This document shows positions 13,896 through 41,252 of a stretch of DNA of 64,000 bases, piece after piece. Position 1 is the first letter of the stretch. Each line of letters begins with the position of its first letter. The DNA is from Bacteroides caecigallinarum (GTDB lineage Bacteria > Bacteroidota > Bacteroidia > Bacteroidales > Bacteroidaceae), in assembly GCF_016901995.1 (NCBI RefSeq), contig NZ_JACJLE010000014.1:1-64000 (forward strand). The letters run 5' to 3'. Position numbers and translations under genes: made by a program. A model generated the notes under the pieces. It made no database searches. It was not told the DNA's origin and was given only the letters and a program-made list of their open reading frames with translations.

Positions 13896-16487
13896 ATGAA
13901 AAATAGAAAAACATGGCGTTTCTTCGCATTGGCCGGCTGCGGAATTCTCTTGTTCTCATGCCAGGAACCGGCCTACAAAAACACTTCATTATCGCCCGAA
14001 AAAAGGGCTGAAGACATTATCAGCAGATTAAATCTGGAAGAAAAAGTATCGTTAATGCAAATGAACTCACCTGCCATTCCACGACTTGGAATAAAGAAAT
14101 ACGACTGGTGGAACGAAGCATTACACGGTGTAGGAAGAGCCGGAACAGCAACGGTATTTCCACAATGTATAGGTATGGCTGCATCATTTGATGATGAGTT
14201 ATTATACGATGTATTCACAGCCGTTTCCGATGAAGCCAGAGCCAAGAACACAGAATTTTCCAAATCCGGAGACTTGCAAAGATATCAGGGACTGACTTTC
14301 TGGACTCCTAATGTAAACATCTTCAGAGACCCGCGTTGGGGAAGAGGTCAGGAAACCTATGGTGAAGACCCGTATCTGGCAGGAAGGATGGGTATCAGCG
14401 TAGTAAAAGGATTACAGGGACCTGACTCCACAAAATACGACAAGCTGCACGCATGTGCAAAACACTATGCAGTACACAGCGGACCGGAATGGAACAGACA
14501 TGTGTTCAATGCCGAAAATATTGATCCTCGCGACTTATGGGAAACTTACCTTCCGGCATTCAAGGATCTGGTGACAAAAGCCGGAGTAAAAGAAGTGATG
14601 TGTGCATACAACAGATATGAAGGCGAACCTTGCTGCGGAAGCACAAGGCTTTTACAGCAGATTTTGCGCGATGAATGGGGATTTAAAGGTATCGTTCTGT
14701 CCGACTGTTGGGCTATAGCCGATTTTTATACCGAAGGACATCATAACACTGAACCTGACGCTGAGCATGCGAGTGCAAAAGCTGTACATTCAGGAACAGA
14801 CCTGGAATGTGGCGAGAGCTACGGTTCGCTGGTTGACGCCGTAAAACAAGGATTGATAAAGGAAGAGACTCTCGACAATTCATTGAAACGCCTTATGACC
14901 GCACGTTTCGAACTAGGAGAAATGGACGAAAATGTATCATGGAAAGAAATCCCTTACAGCGTTGTCGATTGCAAAGAACATAAAGACCTTGCATTGAAAA
15001 TGGCTGAAGAATCACTTGTCCTACTTCAAAACAAAAACAACATACTCCCATTAAACAAGAACATGAAAATAGCGGTTATCGGTCCTAACGCTAACGATTC
15101 TGTAATGCAGTGGGGTAATTATAACGGATTTCCAAGCAAGACTATAACACTGCTTGAAGGACTGAAAGAAATCATTCCCGAATCACAGATTATATATGAA
15201 CAGGGATGTGACCACACTTCTGAAGTATCTTTGCAAAGTCTGTTCGATTTGTGCAGTGCCGATGGTGAAAAAGGATTCAAGGCTTTGTACTGGAACAAGA
15301 TGAAGCAGGAAGGCGATCCTGACGTTACCGCTCATGTAGGTACTCCTTTCCATTTCACCACAGCCGGTGCCACAGTATTTGCTCCTGGCGTAAACCTCGG
15401 AAATTTCTCGGCAAGATATGAATCGGAACTGAAACCGGTAAAAGATGAGACTATAGCATTCAGCTTCCAGACTCAGGGATATATCAGATTATATATAGAC
15501 GGAAAAGAAGTTGCATCGGGACTTAACGTTAAGAACTCGCACGCTTACGAGATGAACGTCGAAAAAGGAAAAACATATGATATAAAGGTAGATTATGTCG
15601 CTACCGAAGGAAACTGTGCGACACTGAATTTCGATTTCGGACGCGAAGTTCCATTAAACCTTTCTTCAACCGTAAACAAAGTAAAAGATGCAGATGTAGT
15701 TATATTTGCAGGTGGTATTTCACCTCAGCTTGAAGGCGAGGAAATGCCTATCAGAATACCAGGATTTAACGGTGGAGACAGAGAAAGTATAGAACTGCCA
15801 GCAATACAGACCAAGTTGCTTACCGCACTGAAAAAAGCCGGAAAGAAAATCGTTATGGTCAACTTCTCAGGCTCGGCTATGGCACTTACAAAAGAAGCAC
15901 AGCTGTGCGACGCTATCCTTCAAGCATGGTATCCAGGACAGGCAGGAGGTAGAGCTGTAGCGGCAACTCTTATGGGTGACTATAATCCTGCCGGAAGACT
16001 TCCGCTCACTTTCTACAAGAGCACAAGCCAATTGCCTGACTTCGAAGATTACTCGCTGAAAGGACGTACATACAGATATTTCACAGACGAACCGTTATTC
16101 CCGTTCGGCCACGGTCTGAGTTATACATCTTTCAAATATGGAGACGCAACTTTAAGTTCTCAAACTATAAAGGCTGATGAAACACTTTCGCTTGAAATTC
16201 CTGTAAGCAATGTAGGCAAACGCGATGGAGAAGAAGTTGTTCAGGTTTATTTGCGCCGTCCGGACGACAAACAAGGTCCTATTTTGACTTTAAGAGAATT
16301 CAAACGTGTAAATATAGGTCAGGGAGAGACAAGCAATGTGAAATTCCAACTTACTCCTGAAAGCTTTGAATGGTTTGACACAAACAGCAATACGATGCGT
16401 ACACTTGAAGGTGAATACGAAATCCTTTATGGTGGAACATCAGACATCAAGAAGCTGAAATCGGTTAAGGTTACGATAGCCGAATAA
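13896..16487 (+). CDS. glycoside hydrolase family 3 protein (beta-xylosidase or beta-glucosidase type) with PA14 insert
   Basis: Encodes 863 residues with an N-terminal export signal and a likely lipobox (LLFSC, Cys22). The GH3 N-domain carries KHYAVHSGPEWNRH (about 189-202) and the nucleophile Asp270 in GIVLSDCWAI. The C-domain is interrupted by a PA14-like module (about 480-590, FSFQTQGYIRLYIDGKEVAS) and continues with a fibronectin-III-like domain at the end (about 760-855). This layout fits enzymes removing xylose, arabinose or glucose from plant glycan oligomers. No SusC/D pair is adjacent, so the substrate is uncertain. Confidence 0.93.
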   Translation: MKNRKTWRFFALAGCGILLFSCQEPAYKNTSLSPEKRAEDIISRLNLEEKVSLMQMNSPAIPRLGIKKYDWWNEALHGVGRAGTATVFPQCIGMAASFDDELLYDVFTAVSDEARAKNTEFSKSGDLQRYQGLTFWTPNVNIFRDPRWGRGQETYGEDPYLAGRMGISVVKGLQGPDSTKYDKLHACAKHYAVHSGPEWNRHVFNAENIDPRDLWETYLPAFKDLVTKAGVKEVMCAYNRYEGEPCCGSTRLLQQILRDEWGFKGIVLSDCWAIADFYTEGHHNTEPDAEHASAKAVHSGTDLECGESYGSLVDAVKQGLIKEETLDNSLKRLMTARFELGEMDENVSWKEIPYSVVDCKEHKDLALKMAEESLVLLQNKNNILPLNKNMKIAVIGPNANDSVMQWGNYNGFPSKTITLLEGLKEIIPESQIIYEQGCDHTSEVSLQSLFDLCSADGEKGFKALYWNKMKQEGDPDVTAHVGTPFHFTTAGATVFAPGVNLGNFSARYESELKPVKDETIAFSFQTQGYIRLYIDGKEVASGLNVKNSHAYEMNVEKGKTYDIKVDYVATEGNCATLNFDFGREVPLNLSSTVNKVKDADVVIFAGGISPQLEGEEMPIRIPGFNGGDRESIELPAIQTKLLTALKKAGKKIVMVNFSGSAMALTKEAQLCDAILQAWYPGQAGGRAVAATLMGDYNPAGRLPLTFYKSTSQLPDFEDYSLKGRTYRYFTDEPLFPFGHGLSYTSFKYGDATLSSQTIKADETLSLEIPVSNVGKRDGEEVVQVYLRRPDDKQGPILTLREFKRVNIGQGETSNVKFQLTPESFEWFDTNSNTMRTLEGEYEILYGGTSDIKKLKSVKVTIAE

Positions 16488-27931: not shown

Positions 27932-27935
27932 AAAA

Positions 27936-27968
27936 ATATGATGAATAAAAAGATTTTATTCATCATAT
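27936..27968. terminator. bidirectional terminator between nadD and the DUF6377 regulator
   Basis: A perfect 15-bp stem (27936-27950 with 27954-27968) closes a 3-nt loop AGA. It begins a few bases after the nadD stop and is preceded by an A-run that would be a T-run for the minus-strand regulator transcript. Confidence 0.85.
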
Positions 27969-27991
27969 ATAACTGCGTCTATTTATACCTA

Positions 27992-29599
27992 TCAACACAA
28001 ATCCATAACACGCTTTTCAAAAGTATCTTTGTCTCCTTTTGCTTTGCTGCGCATTTTACTTCGATAATTATAAATTGTAGTCAACGAGTAACCAAGGAAA
28101 TGAGCTATTCTGCTTGAGTCTGTAACACCCAAACGGATCAAAGCAAATATTCGCAATTCAGTAGTCAGCAACTCGCCAGGTTTTACTACTATCTCTTCAC
28201 CTTCAACCAGCAAATCATTGAAGTTCTTTATAAAGTCAGGAAACAGATCCAGGAAAGAGCGGTCAAATTCCGCATAAAACTTCTTACGTTCATCACTGAT
28301 GAAGCTTGTCTTTTTTATAGCTTTAAACAAATCGTCAATCTTCGATGACATTGCCAGTTTTTCCAGCGAGCGGCGATACTGCTCCAGAGTTTCCAAATAA
28401 TTGACACACTTGTCCAAATAATGTGCTATATATGTTTCCTTGATTTTTCCTGTCATCGTCAGCTCATTGTTTGAGTTTTCCAATTTCAAATTCATGTCAG
28501 CAAGTTCAGCTCTCATTTGAGATATTTTCTTTGTCCAGAAAGCCAATCCTACCACCATTACCAACAACAAGACAAACAATACAGTTCCTACAGCCATAAA
28601 CTTTCTTGTAGCTTTCTGCGCCTTAACAGTCTTTTCGTTGATCTCATTCTGAATTATTTTCTGAAAATTTCCACTTTCCATAGAGCGCAACTGAGCATAA
28701 CAGGCGGTAGCATCTTCTACCGAACATTGTGCATATTTATATGCACGTTCCACATCACCAATATTATATAAACTCCAAGCCAATTTTTGAAGAGCAGCAT
28801 ATTCACGTACAGAATGGCCAATATCTGAAATTGCAGTTTGTGCTAAATGATACATCATACTTAAAGTATCATTCTTCAATTTATATGCTTCAGATAGTGT
28901 ATAATGTAAATAGGTTCTACTTTTATCATCATAAGATACATCCAACAATACTTCCAAACGAGACACAACCTCATCCAATTTATCATGATGTAATAACTGT
29001 TCGGAAAAGACCAAATCATGATTTACCCCTTCAGGAAGTAAATTCAATATTGAGTCGCGATAACATTCTGCAATTTTCGAATATTTTGTTCCTCCATATC
29101 TTTGAGGTACATATTCAGCCATATTAGTATAATGAGAACAGCACACTGAATAATAATACTGTAACATACCCTGATCCATAAGTTTTTTGTCAACAGCTTT
29201 CAACATTTTCTCTGTTTCCATCCTTAGCCCCATTACCCTTAAAACTTCTGCCCTGTTTATCAACACTTCATTTTTCAAATGTGGCATATTTAACGATGGT
29301 AACAATTCTTCCTTCTTGCTTACATAATAATAGGAAGAATCCGACTGATAATGCAAATACTCGTAAAACAAAGACCCATACAACATATACCGTTGCCATA
29401 AATCATCCGTATGTGCTGCCAGTTTCTTCAAGCTGTCAAGCTTCGCTTCGTGTCTGGCGTGAATAGTTGGTTTAACTTCGACCAACGAGTCCAGACGGAT
29501 TAAAACTTCATTCAATTGAGCCCTTTCAATCGTAGCAGATGAAACCGGACTAAGTATAGACAATACCAGACAAAACAATAAAAACAATTTAGTTCTCAT
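27992..29599 (-). CDS. DUF6377 membrane-bound transcriptional regulator next to the fimbrial locus
   Basis: Encodes 535 residues from the ATG at 29599 (MRTKLFLLF), chosen because it opens a clean signal peptide; the frame extends to a TTG at 29641 and an ATG at 29611 is also possible. After the signal come TPR-like helices (to about 320), one membrane helix (about 334-355), a coiled coil and a C-terminal helix-turn-helix (about 476-518, SSRIAHFLGYSLTTIYNYRS). The layout suggests a one-protein sensor: periplasmic sensing, cytoplasmic DNA binding. It is divergent from the fimbrial genes, which are its likely targets. Confidence 0.88.
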   Translation of the reverse strand: MRTKLFLLFCLVLSILSPVSSATIERAQLNEVLIRLDSLVEVKPTIHARHEAKLDSLKKLAAHTDDLWQRYMLYGSLFYEYLHYQSDSSYYYVSKKEELLPSLNMPHLKNEVLINRAEVLRVMGLRMETEKMLKAVDKKLMDQGMLQYYYSVCCSHYTNMAEYVPQRYGGTKYSKIAECYRDSILNLLPEGVNHDLVFSEQLLHHDKLDEVVSRLEVLLDVSYDDKSRTYLHYTLSEAYKLKNDTLSMMYHLAQTAISDIGHSVREYAALQKLAWSLYNIGDVERAYKYAQCSVEDATACYAQLRSMESGNFQKIIQNEINEKTVKAQKATRKFMAVGTVLFVLLLVMVVGLAFWTKKISQMRAELADMNLKLENSNNELTMTGKIKETYIAHYLDKCVNYLETLEQYRRSLEKLAMSSKIDDLFKAIKKTSFISDERKKFYAEFDRSFLDLFPDFIKNFNDLLVEGEEIVVKPGELLTTELRIFALIRLGVTDSSRIAHFLGYSLTTIYNYRSKMRSKAKGDKDTFEKRVMDLC

Positions 29600-29649
29600 A
29601 ATATCAAACATTCTTAGTATAAAATGCAATACTTTTTTCAATTTGTAGA

Positions 29650-29736
29650 TGTTAAAAGTAGTACGAAGATATAAAAACTTTGCAAATTAGCAAATTAATA
29701 CCACTAATAATTATTTAAGTTTTCCTACTTTTAGCA
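29650..29736. repeat. short inverted repeat flanking the regulator promoter
   Basis: TGTTAAAAGTAG at 29650-29661 and CTACTTTTAGCA at 29725-29736 are inverted copies matching at 11 of 12 positions, including 9 consecutive. The 63-bp interval holds the promoter of the DUF6377 gene. It could be a site for promoter inversion or a regulator binding pair. Confidence 0.4.
29664..29694 (-). promoter_or_regulatory. promoter of the DUF6377 regulator
   Basis: TTTG (29691-29694), 19 nt, then TATCTTCG (29664-29671) on the minus strand: an exact -33 element and a -7 element with one mismatch to TAnnTTTG. It lies between two inverted-repeat half-sites. Confidence 0.6.
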
Positions 29737-29874
29737 CTATATCCATCAATGTTATAACACTGGATATCAGCTATTTGTCTCAATACAGCATTTACATTTA
29801 TTTTAAATTTTCGCATTCCTGTTTTCCCTTCATATAATTTTACGACAAATCAAAAAAATACTAAAACACGCACT

Positions 29875-30447
29875 ATGAGAAAAGAAGCACTATTCATAAT
29901 TTTCATAATTGCAAGCATATATCCTATGATATCTTCTGCACAGGAAGTGGTCCTTAAGAGTAATCTGCTTTATTGGTCCACAGGTACACCAAACATAGGT
30001 ATTGAACTTGCCGCCGGCAAGAAATATTCTATCAATATATCCGGAGGTTATATGCCATTTGAATATTCGGAAAACAAGAAACTGAAACATTGGGTCATAC
30101 AGCCCGAACTCAGATACTGGCCATGCGAAACATTCAACGGTCACTTCTTTGGAATACACGCATTGGGAGGACAATTCAACAGCGGAGGTATAAAAATGCC
30201 ATTCAATATATTTCCGTCTTTGGAAAAAAACAGATACCAGGGATGGGGAGCCGGAGCAGGCATTTCCTATGGCTATCACCTGATGCTAAGCAGAAGATGG
30301 AGCCTTGAGTTCAGCCTGGGTCTGGGATATGCCTATCTTAAATACAAGAAATACAAATGTGTACAATGCGGAGGCCCGCAAAAGGAAGACCACACAAATT
30401 ATTTGGGGCCTACCAAACTAGCCATTAACCTGATTTATGTACTATAA
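29875..30447 (+). CDS. DUF3575 family outer-membrane protein of the fimbrial locus
   Basis: Encodes 190 residues with a signal peptide (about 1-22, ending MISSA). The rest alternates hydrophobic and polar residues and ends in an aromatic/aliphatic strand (LAINLIYVL), typical of a small outer-membrane beta-barrel. It fits the DUF3575 pattern (LKSNLLYWSTGTPNIGIEL). DUF3575 proteins accompany fimbrillin genes in many Bacteroidales loci. It is the first plus-strand gene of the locus, 21 nt before the DUF3868 gene. Confidence 0.85.
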   Translation: MRKEALFIIFIIASIYPMISSAQEVVLKSNLLYWSTGTPNIGIELAAGKKYSINISGGYMPFEYSENKKLKHWVIQPELRYWPCETFNGHFFGIHALGGQFNSGGIKMPFNIFPSLEKNRYQGWGAGAGISYGYHLMLSRRWSLEFSLGLGYAYLKYKKYKCVQCGGPQKEDHTNYLGPTKLAINLIYVL

Positions 30448-30468
30448 ACAAGAATAACTTAATTAGCG

Positions 30469-31905
30469 ATGAAAACAAATACATTCATATTTTCCATATT
30501 GTTTGGTCTTTTAGCGGTGTGCAGAGTTCATGCCGAAAAAGAGCCGAACTATACGGTAGAAGTATTTTCCGATACGATACGTACATATGGAACAGACAAA
30601 GTAAAAATCTGTTTTTCAGTCGATTTGGGTGAATATGTCATATCCGGACAGCATAAACGCATAATCACCCCTATAATATGTACCCCCGACCGCAAGAAGC
30701 AGATTTGCCTGCCTGCAATGATCATTAACGGCCGTAAGCGTTCTATAAAGGAATTGCGCGACGGAAATGTACAGGAACCGTCAGCCGGAGAGTACATAAC
30801 CCTGAACGGGAACAAAAAAGAAAACCGCATAATCAACTATCGCACCGAAACGGACTATACGCCATGGATGGAAGACGCTCAGATTCTTCTCAGACACGAA
30901 GTTATAGGATGCGCTTCGTGCGGACTCCTTGAAGAAGAATACGGAGTGAGCAACAGCCTGCTTTACAAACCTGAATTCAAGGTAAGTCCGGAGATGGAAT
31001 GCCCCAACGATTTCGTACAACGCAAAATCCGCAAGGACGCATTTCTTATATATCCTGTAAACCAGACAGTTTTATACCCTGAACGTTACGGCAACGAGCG
31101 TGAGCTTGAAAAGATTGATTCCGCCATAAACTATGTGCGTTTTAATCCTGATTACGAAATACGCCACATTGACATTGCAGGATTCGCATCTCCCGAAGGA
31201 AGCTATAAGCATAACATAAAACTGGCCGAAGGACGTGCCGAAGCACTGAAGAAATACATTACAAAATACTATCCATATATTTCCACACCACTTAATGTGG
31301 TTTCTGGAGCCGAAAACTGGGATGGACTGAAAAGCATACTTTCCGCCAGCCAGTTGCCACACAAAGAGAAAATGCTGTCCATCATAGACAGCATAGACAG
31401 TCCGGACCGTCGCGAAGAAGCCATAAAAAGCATAGACAACGGTCGTACCTACCAAACACTACTGACCACAGTTTTTCCGGTATTGCGTAAAAACACATTC
31501 ACCATAAGCTATATCAGTAAAGAACGGACTCCGGAAGATGCCAGACGTCTGGCATTCAGCCAACCTCAGGAGCTAAACGCCTATGAGTTCTACAATGTTG
31601 CGCACCGCTTCTATGCTGACGATACCGAGACATACAGACGTCTTCTGCTTATAGCAGCCGACACCTATCCAGAAAACTCCATAGTATGCAATAATGCCGC
31701 AGCGATATGCCTTTCTACAGGCGACTACAACAAGGCAGAGAAGTATCTTTCGCAAACAGCCAACGAGCCTTTCACATGGAACAACCGTGCATATCTGCTC
31801 TGGATGACAGGCAGAAAGGAAGAAGCCAAAGTGTGGTGGGAAAAGGCGGCTGGAAACGGTGATGCCATAGCGGAATATAATTTACAGGAATTGGGAAAAA
31901 GATAG
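30469..31905 (+). CDS. DUF3868 protein with OmpA-like and TPR-like regions
   Basis: Encodes 478 residues with a signal peptide (about 1-22). The N-terminal half fits DUF3868, with a CASCG motif near residue 150. Residues about 220-270 (HIDIAGFASPEGSYKHNIKL) resemble the peptidoglycan-binding loop of OmpA C-terminal domains. The last 90 residues (AADTYPENSIVCNNAAAICL onward) form TPR-like helices. It could anchor the fimbrial machinery to peptidoglycan. It lies between the DUF3575 gene and the major fimbrillin gene, 84 nt upstream of the latter. Confidence 0.83.
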   Translation: MKTNTFIFSILFGLLAVCRVHAEKEPNYTVEVFSDTIRTYGTDKVKICFSVDLGEYVISGQHKRIITPIICTPDRKKQICLPAMIINGRKRSIKELRDGNVQEPSAGEYITLNGNKKENRIINYRTETDYTPWMEDAQILLRHEVIGCASCGLLEEEYGVSNSLLYKPEFKVSPEMECPNDFVQRKIRKDAFLIYPVNQTVLYPERYGNERELEKIDSAINYVRFNPDYEIRHIDIAGFASPEGSYKHNIKLAEGRAEALKKYITKYYPYISTPLNVVSGAENWDGLKSILSASQLPHKEKMLSIIDSIDSPDRREEAIKSIDNGRTYQTLLTTVFPVLRKNTFTISYISKERTPEDARRLAFSQPQELNAYEFYNVAHRFYADDTETYRRLLLIAADTYPENSIVCNNAAAICLSTGDYNKAEKYLSQTANEPFTWNNRAYLLWMTGRKEEAKVWWEKAAGNGDAIAEYNLQELGKR

Positions 31906-31989
31906 GCGCATTTCCTGCCGTACCTTATACTTAAACAGAATATCAAAACAATTAAATAACTTTTTTTTATAATTAAAAACTCAAAAAAC

Positions 31990-33552
31990 ATGAAAAATTT
32001 ATTTTTAACAGGCCTTATCGGCCTAGGTGTCTTCAGTTCATGCAGCAACGAAGGCGATCCTGTGAACAATCAACAAAACGATGGCACTGCATACACGCAG
32101 ATTATGATTAATGTGGCTTCAACCAGCGCAACACGTACAAACACAAGTGGTAGCACTGGTGAAAGTGCTTATGGTGAGGACACTGAATACACCATCAGCG
32201 ACATACGCGTTGTACTTGCTGACCCAACAACCAATATTGCCAAGTACATCTATGACCCGGAAATGAAAGAAGCAACAAACAATGGTGATGATGATAAAGT
32301 TATCCGCGTTACCAAACCGTTTTTGGTAGAAGCAGGCGAATACAACGTTTATGTGCTTGCAAACTATAAGGATAACCAAAACAACTTGTCACCTATTATT
32401 GCCAACAGTACCGACATGAAACAGGCATTTACAATCACAAATGCTGCAGGACTGGCTACAAGCGAAAAATTCTTTATGACTAATTCAGAAGTAACTAAAC
32501 AGACTCTTCAAACAACTGATGTATCTGGAACTGAGGTTGATGACGCAGGACAGACTGTTTCAGAAGGAGCAACAGTAAACCTTCTTGCTATTGACATTGA
32601 ACGTGTAGTCAGCAAAGTTACTTTTAATAATAGTGATAGCCAGTCTTTTGAAGTTAAAAGTGGTAATGACAAGATAGCTACCGCAACACTGGAAGGTGTA
32701 TCACTCATCAACCTTAACACAAAGATGTTTTTAGTAAAGGAGAAAGACAGTAATGTAAATCCAGCACTGTCATGGTCTGGTTATTTCTACGTGAAAGATC
32801 CTAACTATGACAAAACACTTTCTGGTTCAGACGACGAAGCAACTTGGTTACCAGATAACTTTAGCCAAGCAGAAGCTACTGTTTTTACAACTCCTAATGC
32901 CGCAAAGCTTTACTGCCCTGAAAATACTATGGTAGCTACAGCACAACAACACGGTCAAACTACAGGAGTAGTTTACAAAGTTAAATACACTCCTGAAGAG
33001 ATAGGATTTTCAATACTTGACAAGGACGGCAGCGATACATACTCGCAGATTTATGGCAAATTATTGGCTGGTGCATCTTATGATGAAGACATCACAGATA
33101 ATATGTTTACAACAGCCGTAGCAGAAGACAAAAATTTTTACGAATACAACGGCTTTATTTTCAAAACCAAGAATGCTGCCATTTTGTACTATACTATTGA
33201 TAAAGCTGCAAGCAAATCTACAGACGATAGCAACATCAGTACCATAAACGGGGCTTTTTCAACAAACAAAACAAGTGTTCCTGCTGACGTCCATACCTAT
33301 ACAGAAGGCTACTGCTATTACACAGCATGGATTAAGCATAATCCAAATGGTTCTCATATGGAAGCAGGTAAATTTGGTACAGTGCGTAATCACTGGTATG
33401 AACTTACTGTAAATGGTATTAATGGTTTAGGAAATTACGAACCTACTTACGAAGATCCAGAAGACCCAGATGAAGAGGCTAAAGCTAATATTCAAGTCGA
33501 AGCCAAGATTAAGAAATGGGTACTCGTAAAACAAGATGTAACATTGGAATAA
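31990..33552 (+). CDS. Mfa1-type major fimbrial subunit
   Basis: Encodes 520 residues. The lipobox VFSSC (Cys18) marks a lipoprotein precursor; in type V pili an Arg-specific protease later removes the N-terminus to trigger strand exchange, and Arg residues occur early in the mature part (SATRTNTSG). The C-terminus carries the fimbrillin signature: TVRNHWYELTVNGINGLG, then an acidic linker and a terminal strand (AKIKKWVLVKQDVTLE). It is Ala/Thr/Asn/Asp rich, as expected for a surface polymer. It is followed by a 193-nt gap with a hairpin that may limit read-through into the minor subunits. Confidence 0.93.
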   Translation: MKNLFLTGLIGLGVFSSCSNEGDPVNNQQNDGTAYTQIMINVASTSATRTNTSGSTGESAYGEDTEYTISDIRVVLADPTTNIAKYIYDPEMKEATNNGDDDKVIRVTKPFLVEAGEYNVYVLANYKDNQNNLSPIIANSTDMKQAFTITNAAGLATSEKFFMTNSEVTKQTLQTTDVSGTEVDDAGQTVSEGATVNLLAIDIERVVSKVTFNNSDSQSFEVKSGNDKIATATLEGVSLINLNTKMFLVKEKDSNVNPALSWSGYFYVKDPNYDKTLSGSDDEATWLPDNFSQAEATVFTTPNAAKLYCPENTMVATAQQHGQTTGVVYKVKYTPEEIGFSILDKDGSDTYSQIYGKLLAGASYDEDITDNMFTTAVAEDKNFYEYNGFIFKTKNAAILYYTIDKAASKSTDDSNISTINGAFSTNKTSVPADVHTYTEGYCYYTAWIKHNPNGSHMEAGKFGTVRNHWYELTVNGINGLGNYEPTYEDPEDPDEEAKANIQVEAKIKKWVLVKQDVTLE

Positions 33553-33599
33553 ACTCATGATTATTAAGTGCATTAATAGTTTTCAATAGGTACAAAATA

Positions 33600-33690
33600 T
33601 AGGAAGAAGGAATTCTGCAATTCTATATTCCATTATCAAGAGAATTCTATATAGGAATAAAGGCAGACCTTCTTCTTATATTCTTTTTAC
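33600..33690 (+). terminator. imperfect long hairpin after the major fimbrillin gene (attenuator-like)
   Basis: TAGGAAGAAGG (33600-33610) can pair with CCTTCTTCTTA (33668-33678), with further pairs inside (TCTGC with GCAGA, TTCC with GGAA). T-rich sequence follows (33679-33697). The shape suggests a partial terminator or 3' stabiliser that raises major over minor subunit mRNA. Confidence 0.6.
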
Positions 33691-33745
33691 TTTTTTCACT
33701 CATAACCGGAGCCATATTATGGCGCTATAAAAAATTATTTATATT

Positions 33746-34741
33746 ATGAATCTCCTTTATAAACTGACAATAACAGCACTATGCTTCTCACTGATGGGAA
33801 TCCTCAACTCATGTATCTACGAAGATGAGGTGGTATGCCCGTGCGAAGTCCGCTTCGTTTACGACTACAATATGGAGTTTGCCGATGCATTTCCATCACA
33901 AGTAAACGACGTCACGCTTTTTGTCTTCGACTCTGAAGGACGGTTCATCTTTTCACGCAGAGACAGCGGCGACCATCTGGACGCTGACTACAGAATGCCA
34001 CTTGAACTTTCGCCCGGACATTACCGGCTTATCGTATGGGCAGGACTTGACGAAAACAATACCGGAATCACTCTAAAAAACACCCTCCAGAGCAACGTAT
34101 CCACCATAAATGACCTGGAGTTGAATCTGAATATCAACAATTATATTTGCGACAGCCACCTTTCAGACGTATGGTATGGCAAGGTGGAAGACTTCGAAGT
34201 AAAAGACGACGCTCCATCATACGCAACTATATCGCTCGTAAAAGACGTAAAACGATTTAAAATCCTATTGCAGGATACAGAAGGCAAAACACTATCGAAA
34301 GAAGACTATTCATTCACCATCTCAACGGCCAACAAGGCGCTGGACCATAATAACTTGCCTTCGGACAACAACAATGTTGCCTACCTACCCTATAGCCTTC
34401 AGGAAGTTACTATAGAAAATGAAGCCGACTCGCGCAGCAATACAGACATAAACGCTCTGGTGGCAGAAATGGCTTCCCTCAGACTGACAGATGAAAGACC
34501 TGCACGGTTCACAGTCAGAAACAAACGCACGCAAAAAGATTTATTCGACATAGATCTGGTGAAATATCTCAACATGATGAAACTTGACGAATATTCGGAC
34601 ATGACATTACAAGAGTTTCTCGACAGAGAAAGCACCTATCAGATTATCCTCATAATAGGAAAAAACGATTCAGGACAGGATGTGACATTGTCAATACGTA
34701 TTAACGCCTGGACTTTAGTATTCAATCAAACTGAGCTATAG
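33746..34741 (+). CDS. FimB/Mfa2-type fimbrial anchor subunit
   Basis: Encodes 331 residues with a lipobox (ILNSC, Cys23) and the family signature: two Cys near the mature N-terminus (VCPCEVRFVYDYNME) and PSQVNDVTLFVFDSEGRF. Mfa2/FimB proteins cap the base of the fimbria and hold it in the outer membrane, limiting its length. A C-terminal segment (VTLSIRINAWTLVFNQTEL) ends the second beta domain. It lies 12 nt before the first large minor subunit. Confidence 0.92.
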   Translation: MNLLYKLTITALCFSLMGILNSCIYEDEVVCPCEVRFVYDYNMEFADAFPSQVNDVTLFVFDSEGRFIFSRRDSGDHLDADYRMPLELSPGHYRLIVWAGLDENNTGITLKNTLQSNVSTINDLELNLNINNYICDSHLSDVWYGKVEDFEVKDDAPSYATISLVKDVKRFKILLQDTEGKTLSKEDYSFTISTANKALDHNNLPSDNNNVAYLPYSLQEVTIENEADSRSNTDINALVAEMASLRLTDERPARFTVRNKRTQKDLFDIDLVKYLNMMKLDEYSDMTLQEFLDRESTYQIILIIGKNDSGQDVTLSIRINAWTLVFNQTEL

Positions 34742-34753
34742 AAACACAATACC

Positions 34754-37489
34754 ATGACCAAACATATAATTTACAGACTCATTTCATTTACAATATTGCT
34801 GACAGGACTTCTGTCGTGCACATCATCCATTCCGGAAAAGAATATAGTAAAATCCGGAGACGAAGAAGGTGTGCTGTATATCAGCGTGCCTGTCAACACC
34901 CCCACTTCGCGTGCACAAAACACCCTTGGCGAGCAGAATGCCACACAGGACGAGATGCGTATCACTTCGCTATGGTTTATGGCTTATCCCACCGGCGGCG
35001 ATGGCACTACTGTAATCACCAAATTAGACACAGACCAGCTGACACACGACAACAAAACATTCTCCATAAAAATGAAATACGGCACTTACCGCATATATGT
35101 AGCAGCCAACGTACCGGAAATATATGCAGGAATTGACGAAGAGTCGTTGAGGGCCATTGTACTGAAATATAAGGATGGAGATAATATCACGCTGCCAGAT
35201 ACAGACAATCACGGCCTGCCTATGTTCTACGAAAAGCAGGAGCCATTCACACTAACATACGGAAAATCGGAATGTATAGTTGCCGATTTGACATATACTT
35301 GCGTAAAAATACGCTACACACTAGTGTTCGACAATACCGAAAACGGAATTTCCAATCCCACATTCGGCACGAATGTGGTAAAAATTGATGGTATAAGCGT
35401 GCAAAACATTGCAGACCGCGCACCTCTGGTTCCTGACAACGACATAAGCGGCTCCATCACACTTTTTGACACGGATGCCTCGGGAGCATTCAACGGTATG
35501 TACTGTCCGGGAGTGTACAATCCGGATAATGCGGACAACTATACATTCGACCTTGAAACAATTGACAATACACAAGCCGGACAATGGGCATACAGAGGCA
35601 TATTCTATCTGCCCGAACACTTTATAACACAAGAGACACAGGACAGCCAGACAAAAATGACCGTGCATGCATCGCTATATACAGCCGAAGGTGTGTCGCG
35701 CGCATCGTTGGAATATACCATTGAACTGGGCGATACTGAAGATACACAAGAAAATTTGCGTCAATTGCCCAGAGGACGAATGTACGACATTACAGGACGC
35801 ATAACAGGACTGGGCGACAAAATAGAAACCACTGCTGCCGTTAAAGACTGGACATTACAGACCATCAGTACAGATCTGAACGGCCCGTATTATCTTTATG
35901 TCGAGAAAACCAGCGTAGCACTTGAAGCCGGCAAGGACGTAACCGTGCCGTGTCATTCTGACTTCAGCAGCCTGGACTATGAAAGTCCGCAATACACCCT
36001 GTCCGACGGCACAGTGACAGACATATATCAGGTGGAATTCAACAAAGACGAGAACGGGAATTACGAATCATTCACAGTCCGCATACATCCCAATATGCCT
36101 CCTGTAGCAAATGCGGAAAACATTGAAGCAATAGACAAATATTTTTATATAGTAGCCGGAAGCATCAGAAAAAAGATTGTAGTCAACCCTCTGAAACTTG
36201 AGCCATACCTGATTGTAACACCGCAAAACTATACCATATATATAAAAGAGATATCAAACCTTACGTCATATGACGTAACTTATACATATCGCACCAACCT
36301 TCCTTCAATAACAATAAAAGCCGATAAAGATATCAATTATTTGTCAACCAAGGCAGGCGAAAATGTATTCAGTGCCACATCACCATACAGCGGGAATGTG
36401 ATTGAAGGAACAGGACAAATGACGTGTACGCTGGAAGACCCTTATATTTCAGGCAATTTTCCGATTTCCAGTTCGGCTACATACACATTTACAGCAAGCG
36501 AATACGGACATACATTAACCCAAACAGCAGACATTAAGATAATTCCAAATTCCACCGTATATAGGTTGCATTTCCGTCCGATTACCGACGACTGGGAGAA
36601 TCCGCACATTTACATATACGAACCCCTGTACACTCCTAACGGAACTGAAATTACTATTCCAAGTAATCCTGAAGGCGAAAATGCCATACAATACGGATTC
36701 ACAGGGAAAATAACCTTTATGGGATGGACAAATCAGGGAGGAACTGTAAATAACCCTGTTCCATCCTATATGGATAAAACGGGAAATAAATATCAGGTAG
36801 GTTCCGACTATGACCCCAATATTATAAATACAAATATTTATAATATTGACATAGACTATTGCCCGTCTTTCCGTACAGATTGCTGTGCCGGTAATGCCGT
36901 CAACAGGAAATGGCCTGGAGTAAAGATGAAACCTGACGACAGCAACCCCGGATGGTTCTATTTTGACCTGCCGGTGTTGGCCGAACCAGGAAAATCACTT
37001 ATAATGTTCGCCAATGGACATGATGGTCCTTCAAGCACAGATTATAGCGGACACTACCGTTACCCTGCCCATATGGTTCCGGGTGTGCCGCTTTATAATT
37101 TTGCAGACAAGGACGGCTGGTTTTTATACGACTATACACAGGGAGATAAAAATGAATTTGTTGATGACAAACCAAACATTATGGACAAAGTCAATTCTTT
37201 ACCGGACGGAGTCTATCGCATATGGTGTAAGACTGAGCATTCACGTATTCACATATGGATAGACGAAGCCGATTATACAGGTTGGAATGATGGACTTGGT
37301 GAATTAAGAGATAATGGTGACGGATATAAATACTTTGATATTAAAGTTTCAGACAGCTGGAGACCAAGCGGAACAATCAATTATATTTTGCATACAGTAG
37401 GAGGTGGGCAAACAGACGACCTTACCATCAGCACAAAACAATGGAAATCTACAACAGGAAAAACTTATGACTATGAAGTATATATTTAA
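34754..37489 (+). CDS. large fimbrial minor subunit with starch-binding-like C-terminal modules
   Basis: Encodes 911 residues. The lipobox is LLSC (Cys22). The N-terminal third resembles fimbrillin (ISVPVNTPTSRAQ, then KYGTYRIYVAANVPEIYAG), so it is probably an accessory or tip subunit. From about residue 600 the sequence changes: a module with ITFMGWTNQGG, KWPGVKMKPDDSNPGWFYFD and SLIMFANGHDGPS, then a second with RIHIWIDEADYTGWNDG and YILHTVGGGQTDDLTIS. Both resemble CBM26-type starch-binding modules. The pairing with anchor and fimbrillin suggests a surface adhesin for glycans. The family match is by eye. Confidence 0.82.
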   Translation: MTKHIIYRLISFTILLTGLLSCTSSIPEKNIVKSGDEEGVLYISVPVNTPTSRAQNTLGEQNATQDEMRITSLWFMAYPTGGDGTTVITKLDTDQLTHDNKTFSIKMKYGTYRIYVAANVPEIYAGIDEESLRAIVLKYKDGDNITLPDTDNHGLPMFYEKQEPFTLTYGKSECIVADLTYTCVKIRYTLVFDNTENGISNPTFGTNVVKIDGISVQNIADRAPLVPDNDISGSITLFDTDASGAFNGMYCPGVYNPDNADNYTFDLETIDNTQAGQWAYRGIFYLPEHFITQETQDSQTKMTVHASLYTAEGVSRASLEYTIELGDTEDTQENLRQLPRGRMYDITGRITGLGDKIETTAAVKDWTLQTISTDLNGPYYLYVEKTSVALEAGKDVTVPCHSDFSSLDYESPQYTLSDGTVTDIYQVEFNKDENGNYESFTVRIHPNMPPVANAENIEAIDKYFYIVAGSIRKKIVVNPLKLEPYLIVTPQNYTIYIKEISNLTSYDVTYTYRTNLPSITIKADKDINYLSTKAGENVFSATSPYSGNVIEGTGQMTCTLEDPYISGNFPISSSATYTFTASEYGHTLTQTADIKIIPNSTVYRLHFRPITDDWENPHIYIYEPLYTPNGTEITIPSNPEGENAIQYGFTGKITFMGWTNQGGTVNNPVPSYMDKTGNKYQVGSDYDPNIINTNIYNIDIDYCPSFRTDCCAGNAVNRKWPGVKMKPDDSNPGWFYFDLPVLAEPGKSLIMFANGHDGPSSTDYSGHYRYPAHMVPGVPLYNFADKDGWFLYDYTQGDKNEFVDDKPNIMDKVNSLPDGVYRIWCKTEHSRIHIWIDEADYTGWNDGLGELRDNGDGYKYFDIKVSDSWRPSGTINYILHTVGGGQTDDLTISTKQWKSTTGKTYDYEVYI

Positions 37490-40331
37490 AATAAAATTGT
37501 GTGTCTTCCTGTTTCTTCTTTCAGTTGCTTCTTGCACTGAAAAGAAGATATTCGGCGATATGCCGCAAGACGGCGATTTGGTAGAAATGACATTTATACT
37601 CAACATAGCACAGACACAGGAAGTTGATATGAGCCGTGCTACAGCAGACGAGAACACCATCAACAATATATATTTGATGGTATTCCCGTCACAGGAACCC
37701 GATGCCATTCTTGAACAAACTCAAGAATTAAACCCGTCCGACATGACAGACGCAGGAAATGAGAGCGGATACAGAAAGAAATTCACTACAACACTCAAAG
37801 CATCAAGTACTCCCAAATATATCTTCATAGTAGCAAATGCGGCAAAACAACTGTCAGGCATTGAAACAGGGAAAACAACTCTGGAAGATATAAGGAACAA
37901 GACCACAAACTGTTCCGAAAATCCATACGTAATGAGCGGTGTAATAAATTCAACTATTCCGGGAATAGGGCTGATAGCTGAAGATATACCTTTAATACGT
38001 ACGGTAGCGAAAATAACAGTACAAACCGGTGGAAATGTGAACAATTTCAGCCTGGACGGTTTTGAACTCAGAAACGGGAACAGCACCGGCAGTATCCTTG
38101 CAGGAGCAGACCAGACTGTGCCAACTACAGCCGGAACCGAAACCCTCTCTGCTACAAAAAACGGACCACTTTATACTTGCCCGGGCAGCCATACATCATC
38201 CGGACACTTCCTTATAATTAAAGGTACCTACAACGGGACAGAAGGATATTATCGCATAAACCTGAGAACTCAAGATTCAGAAGGAATTGACATTCTGCCA
38301 AACCATCACTATGAAATCATGATTACAGAAGTAACCACTCATGGATATGCCATAGCTGATGAAGCAGCAGAAAGCAACCCAACCGGCATAACAGCCACGA
38401 TATATGACCACCAGCCTGATATCAACAATATGATTACGGACGGCAATGTGGAACTCGGTGTAAGTGACACTATAGAAATAGGCGCACAGACAAACTCCAC
38501 ACAAACTTTTGAAATAAAGTATTATCCCGGCACACCAACCGATTTAAAAGTTGAATTAGACAGCAAGGACACCTATTGGCTTGCACTGGACAACAATGGA
38601 AATCCTATTTCGACAACAACTCTTAATGACGGAAAAGAAACCGGAACACTCTATGAATACAGAGTAAAAGTCATTTCAGGCAATCTGTCAGGAGACAGCC
38701 GATATGCTACAATACATCTGTCGGCAGGGAACCTGAGCCGTGACGTCATTGTAAAACAGACCAACGAATTTATCAACGATGAATTCGGAAGCATATCATT
38801 AAAAGTAAAAGAGTACGATAGAGACGAAAACACATGGGCTGCAACGCTCAAGAATGAATACGGTCCTTACGACAACTATTGGAAATTCATCAGAGGAGAG
38901 GAAACTACTGACCCAACCAAGACCCTTTATGGAATAAATCCTGAAGATATGGGTGGCAAGATACGAAATGAAGGCTTTCATGCTCCTATGTCCGACTTCA
39001 TGCAGTTCGTATATACATTTACAATGCCGGACGAAAGCAATAATGCAGATTACAATAATGTTTCGTGGAAAGTAGAACTGGCAGAAGGCTATGAGGACAA
39101 GCTGTTATTTTGGGATGGTATATATTCTCCTGAGGGTCAAGGAACTTCCACTCCTCCAAGAGGAGATAATTTGGCAGGTCAGTTGTTCACATTCACAAAC
39201 AAACTGCTCGACCTGCAAAAGCCTGATGCCAGTATAATATCAGATGCTTACCGATATGGAAAAGATGTGTTCAGAATTGTCCTTACGAACAAAAATACAG
39301 GACGTACTACAACTCTTTCATATGACTTGTATCATACCGGAGTATTTGCATACGACGACGGGAAAGGTACATACCAGACCGGAAATGCGAACTCACAAGG
39401 ATGGTACTATTATGAGGTGATTCTGATGGGAAACAACTATTGGCTGGACCGCAACCTCGGAGCCAAATCCAGCGGATACTATATACAGGATGAAAACGGC
39501 AACAGTCTGCTGGGAAACGGAAGTTGGCCATTCGACGATGACTCGGCAGGAGGATTATACTGCATAGCAGAATCTCCAATAAATAACGAACCAAATATAA
39601 TTGACGACATTTGCCCCAAAGGATTCAGAGTTCCGTATATGTCGGAATTTAATGCACTCGTATCAAATCCTAATTTCAAAAACGAGTATATCGTCAATAC
39701 CGGTCTGAACTACTGGAGCAGTCATTACATCTCGGACAAGGGGACAGTGTTTTTCCCTAAAAACCGAATGTACTATGATGATACTCAAACAGCAGGCGAT
39801 GCCAATGCGGGTTACTACTGGACCCGAACCGCCGCTGTAGGTACAAGCGGTTCAGAGCGTGGCTTCTGGCTACAATTCATGAAATTTTCAGGAAGCAACG
39901 CCTCCGCAGGACGATACAGAATCTTCCAGGGAAATGATCCGAACTCACGCAGAAACGGAATGTCGGTCAGATGTGTATATGCATCGCGTACGGTAGAGAC
40001 TTCGTATGACATTGAGTTTTACGTTAAAGGCTATACACACGTCTTTCTATACAATGATGAAGGAAACGGAAAAATGACATACCTGAACTCATGGCCAGGA
40101 GAAATGATTGCCATATACGACGACAGCTCATTAAATATGTACCACACGTTTACATACAACAGCGTAACCGAGTATGACAATCTGAAAGTGGTATTCAACG
40201 TAGTTGACAACGACGGTTCCATAAAAAGCAGTTATCCTGCCGACTATGCAGTAAATGGAGGAATAGGATTTTCAAGAACTCAGAACGAAAAATTTTTCCG
40301 AAACGGTGCGTGGAGTTCTACTGCAAATTAA
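37467..40331 (+). CDS. large fimbrial minor subunit with FISUMP-like and starch-binding-like domains
   Basis: Encodes 954 residues from the ATG at 37467, chosen for the AGGA 7 nt upstream and because it opens a lipoprotein signal (lipobox SVASC); the frame extends to 37404. It overlaps the previous gene by 23 nt. The N-terminus is fimbrillin-like (MTFILNIAQTQEVDMSRATA). Residues about 650-840 read like the FISUMP fold (NYWLDRNLGAKSSG, CPKGFRVPYMSEFNALV, YYWTRTAAVG, MSVRCVYAS). The last 110 resemble a CBM26-like module (VKGYTHVFLYNDEG, LNSWPGEM, NLKVVFNVVDNDG). It is probably a tip protein presenting a carbohydrate-binding end. Confidence 0.82.
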   Translation: MTMKYIFKIKLCVFLFLLSVASCTEKKIFGDMPQDGDLVEMTFILNIAQTQEVDMSRATADENTINNIYLMVFPSQEPDAILEQTQELNPSDMTDAGNESGYRKKFTTTLKASSTPKYIFIVANAAKQLSGIETGKTTLEDIRNKTTNCSENPYVMSGVINSTIPGIGLIAEDIPLIRTVAKITVQTGGNVNNFSLDGFELRNGNSTGSILAGADQTVPTTAGTETLSATKNGPLYTCPGSHTSSGHFLIIKGTYNGTEGYYRINLRTQDSEGIDILPNHHYEIMITEVTTHGYAIADEAAESNPTGITATIYDHQPDINNMITDGNVELGVSDTIEIGAQTNSTQTFEIKYYPGTPTDLKVELDSKDTYWLALDNNGNPISTTTLNDGKETGTLYEYRVKVISGNLSGDSRYATIHLSAGNLSRDVIVKQTNEFINDEFGSISLKVKEYDRDENTWAATLKNEYGPYDNYWKFIRGEETTDPTKTLYGINPEDMGGKIRNEGFHAPMSDFMQFVYTFTMPDESNNADYNNVSWKVELAEGYEDKLLFWDGIYSPEGQGTSTPPRGDNLAGQLFTFTNKLLDLQKPDASIISDAYRYGKDVFRIVLTNKNTGRTTTLSYDLYHTGVFAYDDGKGTYQTGNANSQGWYYYEVILMGNNYWLDRNLGAKSSGYYIQDENGNSLLGNGSWPFDDDSAGGLYCIAESPINNEPNIIDDICPKGFRVPYMSEFNALVSNPNFKNEYIVNTGLNYWSSHYISDKGTVFFPKNRMYYDDTQTAGDANAGYYWTRTAAVGTSGSERGFWLQFMKFSGSNASAGRYRIFQGNDPNSRRNGMSVRCVYASRTVETSYDIEFYVKGYTHVFLYNDEGNGKMTYLNSWPGEMIAIYDDSSLNMYHTFTYNSVTEYDNLKVVFNVVDNDGSIKSSYPADYAVNGGIGFSRTQNEKFFRNGAWSSTAN

Positions 40332-40374
40332 CTACAAAATCCGACAAGCATAACCGTAAAAATAAAAGTGTGCG

Positions 40375-40440
40375 CACGTTCGAAACAAAATGGACGCCCA
40401 TTCGAGACAAAATGGACGCACGTTTCAGGTAAAACGTGCG
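40375..40440. repeat. three degenerate 22-bp tandem repeats
   Basis: Units at 40375-40396, 40397-40418 and 40419-40440. The first two share 19 consecutive positions with one difference (TTCGAAACAAAATGGACGC and TTCGAGACAAAATGGACGC); the third agrees with the first at about 14 of 22. The array overlaps the terminator hairpin and may be a dispersed intergenic element. Confidence 0.7.
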
Positions 40441-40452
40441 TCCATTTTTTTT
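40409..40452. terminator. very strong bidirectional terminator after the fimbrial operon
   Basis: A perfect 17-bp stem (40409-40425, AAAATGGACGCACGTTT, with 40432-40448) closes a 6-nt loop and runs into T residues. It separates the fimbrial operon from the converging META-domain gene. Confidence 0.93.
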
Positions 40453-40466
40453 AAACGTATCAAGAC

Positions 40467-41252
40467 TTATTCTGACACTGTTCCGTCTTCGCTCTTAACC
40501 AGCAGAAGAACCTCATTATCAGCAACATCTATAAGCGACAAAGTTCCGTCTTCATTAACAACGAATGAAGCTACTTTATTCATGGCAGAAAGGACCTTAC
40601 GCTCTGTTTCCATACCCGGACCTGCCATCATGGTGCTTATCATCTGACCGAATTTAAGAGAAGAAGGATTGCCCTCTTCCTGAGAGAATGAACCGTTGAT
40701 GATGTTGCATCCGCCGTTTCCGTGGACAGCGTTCTCTGCCACATTGAATGAGATGAAAGGAGTCTTGTCAGCAATCTCTACAGCCGCACCTTCCACCTTT
40801 GTTATATTCCATTTGCCATTGATGTCATTTACTGATACGGCAGGAGCTTCTTTCTTTTCGAGCGACATCAAGACATTGCCGTCCTTGTCAGTAAGCTCTA
40901 CTCCGGCAGACGAAGCCTGATATCCGGCAACCTCGTTCAATGCCTCAAGAACTTTCTGTTCTGTTTCCATATCAGGACACATCATACGTGTTGCACCTAC
41001 TCCGGTAAATCCTATTTTGCCCGGATTGACAGAGTCAACCTCTACTCCACCCATTATTCTGTTACATCCGGCATTTCCGTATATACGTCCTTCTGCAAGA
41101 TCAAAACCTATGTAAGGATTGCCTTCTACCTGTTCACCCTTTACAGATACAACATTCCACTCGCCCGAAATATCTACTGATTTGCCTGTTGTTCCACAAG
41201 ATGACAAAACAACCGCAGCAAAGGCTGCTGCACTGATTAACATTTTCTTCAT
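40467..41252 (-). CDS. lipoprotein with two META/HslJ domains
   Basis: Encodes 261 residues with a lipobox (VVLSSC, Cys19). Two tandem META domains follow: about 28-130 (ISGEWNVVSVKGEQVEGNP, GNAGCNRIMGGVE) and about 140-255 (INGKWNITKVEGAAVEIADK, GNGGCNIINGSFS). Each has the GxxGCNxixG signature. HslJ-type META proteins are envelope proteins linked to heat shock and novobiocin tolerance in E. coli; the mechanism is unknown. It is a single gene with its own -7 box and a strong shared terminator. Confidence 0.92.
   Translation of the reverse strand: MKKMLISAAAFAAVVLSSCGTTGKSVDISGEWNVVSVKGEQVEGNPYIGFDLAEGRIYGNAGCNRIMGGVEVDSVNPGKIGFTGVGATRMMCPDMETEQKVLEALNEVAGYQASSAGVELTDKDGNVLMSLEKKEAPAVSVNDINGKWNITKVEGAAVEIADKTPFISFNVAENAVHGNGGCNIINGSFSQEEGNPSSLKFGQMISTMMAGPGMETERKVLSAMNKVASFVVNEDGTLSLIDVADNEVLLLVKSEDGTVSE

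Follow-up and report, generated by a model that had tools for sequence, protein, structure and literature searches.

Type V pili of Bacteroidales (Mfa1/FimA type) have FimC/FimD/FimE and Mfa3-5 among their tip subunits, and in the Sus system SusE and SusF are surface starch-binding lipoproteins. According to PMC12632263, tip-located pilins that carry a ligand-binding domain at the C-terminus, in some cases a lectin-like one, are already known, little is known about the ligands of Bacteroides type V pili, and SusR mediates maltose-dependent regulation. For Sas20d1, a domain whose fold resembles the starch-binding module CBM26, PMC9112005 describes maltotriose as resting on Y60 and W72 and as hydrogen-bonded by Q127. 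We have analyzed a stretch of 64,000 nucleotides from Bacteroides caecigallinarum (contig NZ_JACJLE010000014.1, positions 1 to 64,000; the window), in which the open reading frame 34754-37489 (+, 911 amino acids), here P0001, is third among the structural genes of such a type V pilus operon and carries a CBM26-type module at its C-terminal end.

P0001 is part of a seven-gene cassette (27992-40331) that consists of a divergent regulator of the SusR family and genes for a DUF3575 protein, an OmpA/TPR protein, Mfa1, Mfa2, P0001 and a further subunit, P0002. From the established gene content, profile matches, conservation of the unit, its presence or absence among genomes and the phylogeny of the regulator, we infer that the locus probably encodes an accessory, glycan-regulated type V pilus that would tether cells to starch-like alpha-glucans; it is the ligand, the induction, the polymerisation and the tip position that this step adds. 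We put forward more tentatively, and stay just on the doubtful side of, a mobile 'Sus-pilus': by this idea, a cassette spreading by horizontal transfer unites a SusR copy with a type V pilus bearing up to three CBM26-type modules, couples the sensing of malto-oligosaccharides to starch-grappling pili, and forms a regulated adhesion arm separate from SusC/D uptake. As starch-binding-type modules are combined with an adjoining SusR-family gene, these hairs may act like a grappling hook that is triggered by starch and catches food particles.

The CBM26-type module of P0001

The Pfam family CBM26 (PF16738, starch-binding module 26) matched residues 717-755 of P0001 with 29.6 bits (cut-off 28.1, E 7.6e-7), and the isolated C-terminal segment yielded 31.8 bits; in a six-frame search of the genome, which scores one stretch, this first module obtained 21.8 bits, below the cut-off. 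With a custom CBM26 profile, for which 57 module rows were taken from other genomes of the order, module 1 scored 29.2 bits, a value that none of 1000 same-letter shuffles attained (958 were reported, the best at 7.7), and the top score among 389 open reading frames was 5.9 bits; these came from 40 further pilus loci in the genus, representing 40 of the 60 non-own Mfa2 matches. CBM26 was likewise reported by Pfam in all five P0001 homologues scanned, one of them above the cut-off. An earlier note, made from the letters of this DNA, had named four motifs in the reading frame, and all of them were recovered: WPGVKM at residue 720, GWFYFD at 733, IMFANG at 750 and GGGQTDDLTI at 883. The start that it gave for the region, 36550, is one base out of frame, as residue 600 begins at 36551.

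According to the custom profile, module 1 has its N-terminal half at 'DDWENPHIYIYEP', starting around residue 611 and lying far upstream of WPG 720, so that an insertion with a length of very roughly 85-100 residues seems to divide the module. Module 1 probably starts near residue 600 and is interrupted by this long insertion. When the window is compared with four relatives, its core (713-812) shows 59-68% identity, as opposed to 43-44% for residues 21-380, and is therefore held tighter than the pilin part. The WPG tryptophan, W720, and the upstream aromatics Y620/Y622 are invariant in the four cassettes aligned, and this combination of WPG tryptophan and upstream aromatic is the one expected of the CBM26 aromatic platform. 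Judged by spacing, W72 of Sas20d1 and the aromatic residue 12 positions earlier would correspond to the tryptophan of WPG and to the aromatic residue of 'YAW' in the CBM26 profile. Y620/Y622 and W720 are accordingly worded here as a candidate platform, their equivalence being drawn from a profile alignment that spans the insertion and from the spacing of Y60/W72 in Sas20d1. Candidate aromatic pairs in the three modules are Y622/W720, W835/W844 (spacing 9) and Y883/W897 (spacing 14), and by reading of the sequence the consensus ligand-contact glutamine is evident in the second module alone (Q886).

A profile made from ten CBM26 modules of the order retrieves solved starch modules, namely Amy16, Amy4 and Amy10 of Ruminococcus bromii, Sas6 (7uwu), Amy13K (6b15) and 2c3g. 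Protein Data Bank matches of the P0001 C-terminal profile (ThreeFoil, GH61) were taken as chance. Within the bacterial family, 62 of 399 genomes have a CBM26 match at E <= 0.005, 57 of them above the cut-off. Among 38 other reading frames of the family that bear the CBM26 profile, 34 match Pfam CBM26 and 30 match Alpha-amylase, and no fimbrial family occurs among the 24 families listed for them. In the genus, four of 61 genomes have a CBM26 match at E <= 0.05: the window's own, two with GH92-like proteins and one with a frame of 56 amino acids (L005). The two GH92-like cases (L004, L006) and an own-genome match within a helicase/nuclease-like protein (L002), all assigned by reading of the sequence, were taken as chance; regions covering eight of 18 non-own rows with weak matches read, with the exception of genome G119, as type VI secretion-like or unrelated. 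The G119 region encodes an 842-residue protein (L030:5593-8118, -) that reads as GDSL-esterase-like and has four tandem C-terminal CBM26-like modules, and a gene nearby bears one further such module.

The pilus cassette and its further modules

The cassette and its modules are arranged in the window as follows.

27992-29641, - strand: SusR-family regulator (DUF6377), divergent from the pilus operon; NCBIfam NF058541, Pfam DUF6377 263.2 bits, tree
29875-30447, + strand: DUF3575 protein, gene 1 of the pilus operon; Pfam PF12099 248.8 bits
30469-31905, + strand: OmpA/TPR protein (DUF3868-like); Pfam TPR_2 above its cut-off, OmpA and DUF3868 below theirs
31990-33552, + strand: stalk pilin, Mfa1 family; NCBIfam NF038041 278.8 bits against 130, Pfam Fimbrillin_C
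33746-34741, + strand: anchor pilin, Mfa2; Pfam PF08842 212.2 bits against a cut-off of 21.2
34754-37489, + strand: P0001, CBM26-bearing putative minor/tip subunit, 911 amino acids; FimD-like N-terminus, Pfam CBM26
37473-40331, + strand: P0002, putative tip subunit with FimA-type N-terminus, FISUMP domain and CBM26-like C-terminal tail; Pfam, homology
36551-37189, + strand: module 1, residues 600-812 of P0001, CBM26 with probable insertion; Pfam core 36902-37018
37190-37486, + strand: module 2, residues 813-911 of P0001, possible degenerate CBM26-like module; weak, W835, W844, Q886
39984-40328, + strand: module 3, residues 861-975 of P0002, CBM26-like tail; profile 18.6 bits, F881/Y883, W897
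27935-40442, no strand: accessory block containing the whole cassette; boundaries from the comparison with G055

Both a stalk of the Mfa1 family and an anchor of the Mfa2 type exceed their curated cut-offs, which assigns the operon to the type V pili. P0001 follows these two genes, and its N-terminus resembles the tip adhesin FimD (NF052322, 64.4 bits, below the cut-off of 170); the window copy has no Pfam FimA match, and three of five homologues exceed the FimA cut-off at the N-terminus. The proposal that P0001 is a fimbrial minor subunit is supported by this position and by these homologues. P0002 has a FimA-type N-terminus (Pfam P_gingi_FimA, 30.7 bits against 21.4) and a Fib_succ_major (FISUMP) domain at 30.2 bits, just below the cut-off of 33.9. 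Its open reading frame (37404-40331) opens at a GTG at 37404, and the start was assigned to the ATG at 37473 from the homologues. Several congeneric pilus operons (L097-L136, inspected in part) include a subunit whose C-terminus reads as FISUMP-like and ends in '...RCVRD'. P0002 can be seen as a FISUMP-type subunit as in those operons, with an additional module behind the FISUMP domain. Upstream of the cassette and outside it, the window encodes a GH3 beta-xylosidase of the Xyl3A type (13896-16487, 1411.7 bits against 1250).

The CBM26-like module at residues 861-975 of P0002 and the regulator were both absent from the earlier note. On the P0002 tail the custom profile gave its 18.6 bits, again reached by none of 1000 shuffles, and all five copies, that of the window included, scored between 13.9 and 21.8 bits. 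A structure model of the tail (AF2) has a mean predicted local distance difference test score (pLDDT) of 72.5 and a predicted template modelling score of 0.66, and the predicted fold may be a beta-sandwich. The P0002 homologues L178:12755-15751 and L179:12773-15775 are 77% identical before the tail (668/872) and 51% within it (54/106), and the L179 tail is nearer to that of the window (58%) than to that of L178; the module looks exchanged or fast-evolving in these two relatives.

The second of the two CBM26-type modules that had been proposed for P0001 fared less well than the first, which Pfam and the homologues support. The WPG motif is missing from module 2 in three of five genomes (the window, L177 and L192); 'GAWPG' is present at the counterparts in L178 and L179, and one of these two WPG-bearing counterparts scored 13.2 bits within the whole protein. 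Identity between the window and four relatives is 13-38% in this region. In the homologue L192:9962-12772 (genome G924) a stop codon falls within module 2, so that this copy is probably without the last module. Module 2 is thus weakly supported as a possible degenerate CBM26-like module.

The regulator, the relatives and the accessory block

The cassette regulator (27992-29641) falls into the SusR family with 481.2 bits in NF058541, barely above the cut-off of 480, and is one of five SusR-family members in its genome, whose neighbors differ. In a tree of 40 rows, the six cassette regulators (one of them twice, as L252) form a single clade (100/100). They lie within a 13-row clade (100/100) together with L223, an own-genome SusR-family copy adjoining a transporter of the major facilitator superfamily, and with L239, L240, L241, L245 and L249 from the genus of G739, all five of which adjoin a SusA-type gene (Cyc-maltodext_N and alpha-amylase in Pfam); the cassette regulator therefore groups with SusR-type genes that stand next to a SusA-type amylase. 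Neighbors were checked for these five genes, L223, L226, L228 and the own-genome copies among the 40 rows, so that an amylase may also stand beside a gene outside the 13-row clade. In 20 other congeneric pilus loci (20 of the 60 non-own matches, with about 9 kilobases upstream) no SusR-type regulator was found, and all 20 have the DUF3575 and OmpA/TPR genes.

A first search for relatives of P0001 among 148 other genomes returned none at E <= 1e-5. No match was obtained by phmmer against the 389 reading frames of the 40 congeneric pilus loci, by a single-protein scan of genome contigs, or in the viral contigs and plasmids searched. A reading frame of genome G739 is a P0001 homologue, 42% identical (393/933 columns), in a homologous operon. 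By alignment search of genome contigs we found the loci L177 (uncultured Bacteroides sp., CALUOT010000001.1), L178 (Bacteroides sp. ET71, the G739 locus) and L179 (Candidatus Bacteroides merdipullorum). A profile search in 149 genomes of the genus of G739 yielded matches in nine, six of them strong: G739 (L178), G850 (L179), G892 (L177), G891 (L191), G924 (L192) and G898 (L193). The weak matches in G819, G835 and G925 were excluded from the counts, and the two loci examined, L194 and L195, contain neither a cassette homologue nor a CBM26-profile match.

Six genomes have the regulator together with the full set of six operon genes: that of the window and those of L177, L178, L179, L191 and L192, the latter five all from one Bacteroides genus. 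Several genes of the L191 cassette are in pieces. The L193 locus is more divergent, and its contig stops short of the regulator position; its P0001 relative (L193:7294-10281, -) has CBM26-profile matches at 636-694 and 920-969, a different arrangement of modules.

In the window the block is preceded by a nadD-like gene that is found in 59 of 61 genomes of the genus, and 30 such loci were compared, the window's own included. In three of the 29 others (G055, G015 and G045) this gene is directly followed by a lipoprotein gene that we label META-type by reading of its sequence and that in the window lies downstream of the block. The nadD-like proteins of G055 and G015 are the two closest to that of the window (93% and 87% identity), and G045 has 80%. 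Alignment to these empty sites ends at window positions 27932-27937 and restarts at 40443-40495, with 90-164 bases in between. This break at the same site in three genomes identifies a block of about 12.5 kilobases, comprising the regulator and the operon, as accessory here. The remaining 26 loci, four with 81-84% identity among them, are uninformative, as their downstream neighbor is unrecognized, different or beyond about 1.5 kilobases.

Ligand, rival readings and known systems

Docking of the pilus to starch or glycogen is plausible from the modules, and more so because a SusR-family regulator belongs to the same cassette; nothing seen in the analysis points to mucin in particular. In such a pilus Mfa1-type pilins would build the stalk and Mfa2 would anchor it, and the two minor or tip subunits would bear C-terminal beta-sandwiches of the CBM26 type, one clear and perhaps one degenerate in P0001 and one behind the FISUMP domain in P0002. 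Their aromatic platforms (Y622/W720, Y883/W897, possibly W835/W844) would stack against chains of starch or glycogen. The divergent regulator would turn the operon on upon release of maltose or malto-oligosaccharides, and cells close to starch would thereby become tethered to it.

A number of results weigh against this scheme. The search of residues 600-911 that had been suggested supports module 1 on the profile side, and on the structural side gave an unusable model (AF2, residues 590-911, four sequences, pLDDT 39). Even with E values up to 10, Pfam did not detect CBM26 in module 2, whose 4.6 bits with the custom profile were matched by 27 of 1000 shuffles (999 reported). The P0002 tail of the window has no Pfam CBM26 match either, and among four homologues the family was found solely in L177, at 16.1 bits and below the cut-off. 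Compared with these four relatives, the tail is 46-60% identical, the N-terminal part 34-40% and the FISUMP region 47-59%, so that the tail is no better conserved than the domain preceding it. A Foldseek search with the tail model gave no match at E <= 0.001. VIA-align ranked CBM26 with bound maltose (2c3h) third, over 83 residues with a root mean square deviation of 4.0 and Z 5.9, a value in the range reached by common folds (Z < 8 is not decisive). Above it in the ranking stand pilotins and next to it pore-forming toxin domains, and the 50 rows listed include 20 starch-binding modules (CBM20, 25, 26, 41, Sas6, Sas20) and 18 pore-forming toxins, apparently their last domain, as counted by titles and ranges. 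As pilotins and toxin domains stand above and among the starch-binding rows, we take this comparison as mild support. The consensus glutamine does not show in our reading of module 1 or the P0002 tail. As to the regulator, its margin over the family cut-off is tiny, and the L178 counterpart, at 463.5 bits, falls below it. As the six cassettes are one lineage, six occurrences against none in 20 loci represent one conserved association and not six. In a comparison of the cassette with SusR-side intergenic regions no shared operator better than shuffles was found, the best 11-mer candidate having 15 mismatches over nine of 12 regions (L179, L245 and L223 omitted), against 13-18 in 12 shuffles.

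Several of these points can also be accommodated by other readings. The modules might have a CBM26-type fold that serves another glycan, such as host glycogen, the alpha-glucan capsule of a neighbor or a mucus glycan, with the pilus recognizing cells or host surfaces as a lectin and the regulator sensing a different sugar. The SusR family does span several systems, as the five members of this genome with their differing neighbors illustrate, the consensus glutamine is missing from view in two modules, and the divergence of the P0002 tail between two near relatives (51%, compared with 77% in the remainder of the protein) is of the kind found in adhesins that face varied ligands. We nevertheless consider this reading rather unlikely, since the nearest regulators include the five SusA-adjacent genes and CBM26 in the same bacterial family resides mainly on amylases (30 of 38 reading frames).

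Less likely still is a purely structural role, in which beta-sandwiches derived from CBM26 have lost sugar binding and join pilins or cap the tip. The long insertion in module 1 would agree with it, as would a module 2 that lacks WPG in three of five genomes and is truncated by a stop in L192; set against this, no other stretch of P0001 that was compared is as conserved as the module 1 core, and the WPG tryptophan and upstream aromatics of the module are unchanged in the four aligned cassettes. We regard it as highly improbable that the motifs resemble CBM26 by chance. The Pfam match spans only positions 27-60 of 70, and scores in the relatives mostly remain below the cut-off; the shuffles, however, never reach the real score of either module 1 or the P0002 tail, and the signal is repeated in homologues, which largely refutes chance as far as sequence comparison goes.

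If the preferred reading of a regulated, starch-tethering pilus is true, the cells would control their attachment to starch particles in the gut jointly with starch use, and starch attachment would be a trait transferred between species in cassette form. For this Bacteroides type V pilus the sequence points both to the class of ligand and to the inducer that are likely. In the open-access literature searched, with most subscription papers and bioRxiv preprints outside its scope, we found no report of CBM26-bearing or starch-binding type V pili.

The cassette resembles the type V pili of Bacteroidales in the order of stalk, anchor and minor or tip subunits, in the family matches of stalk and anchor, and in the extra C-terminal domain on tip subunits, and it differs from them by CBM26-type modules on the ends of two subunits and by its SusR-family regulator. 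With the CBM26 modules of Bacillus halodurans (2c3g/2c3h), Eubacterium rectale Amy13K (6b15) and Ruminococcus bromii Sas6, and with the CBM26-like Sas20, it shares the WPG core, the pattern of the aromatic platform and perhaps the beta-sandwich predicted for the P0002 tail; its modules, however, reside on pilus subunits and not on amylases or amylosome proteins, and module 1 appears to contain a long insertion. Likeness to the Sus system is found in the regulator, which belongs to a clade with SusA-adjacent genes, and in CBM26-like modules that also occur on lipoproteins which by reading look like SusE/F (L057, L059, L168). In contrast to the Sus system, the cassette contains neither a transporter nor an amylase, and its output would be a pilus rather than uptake.

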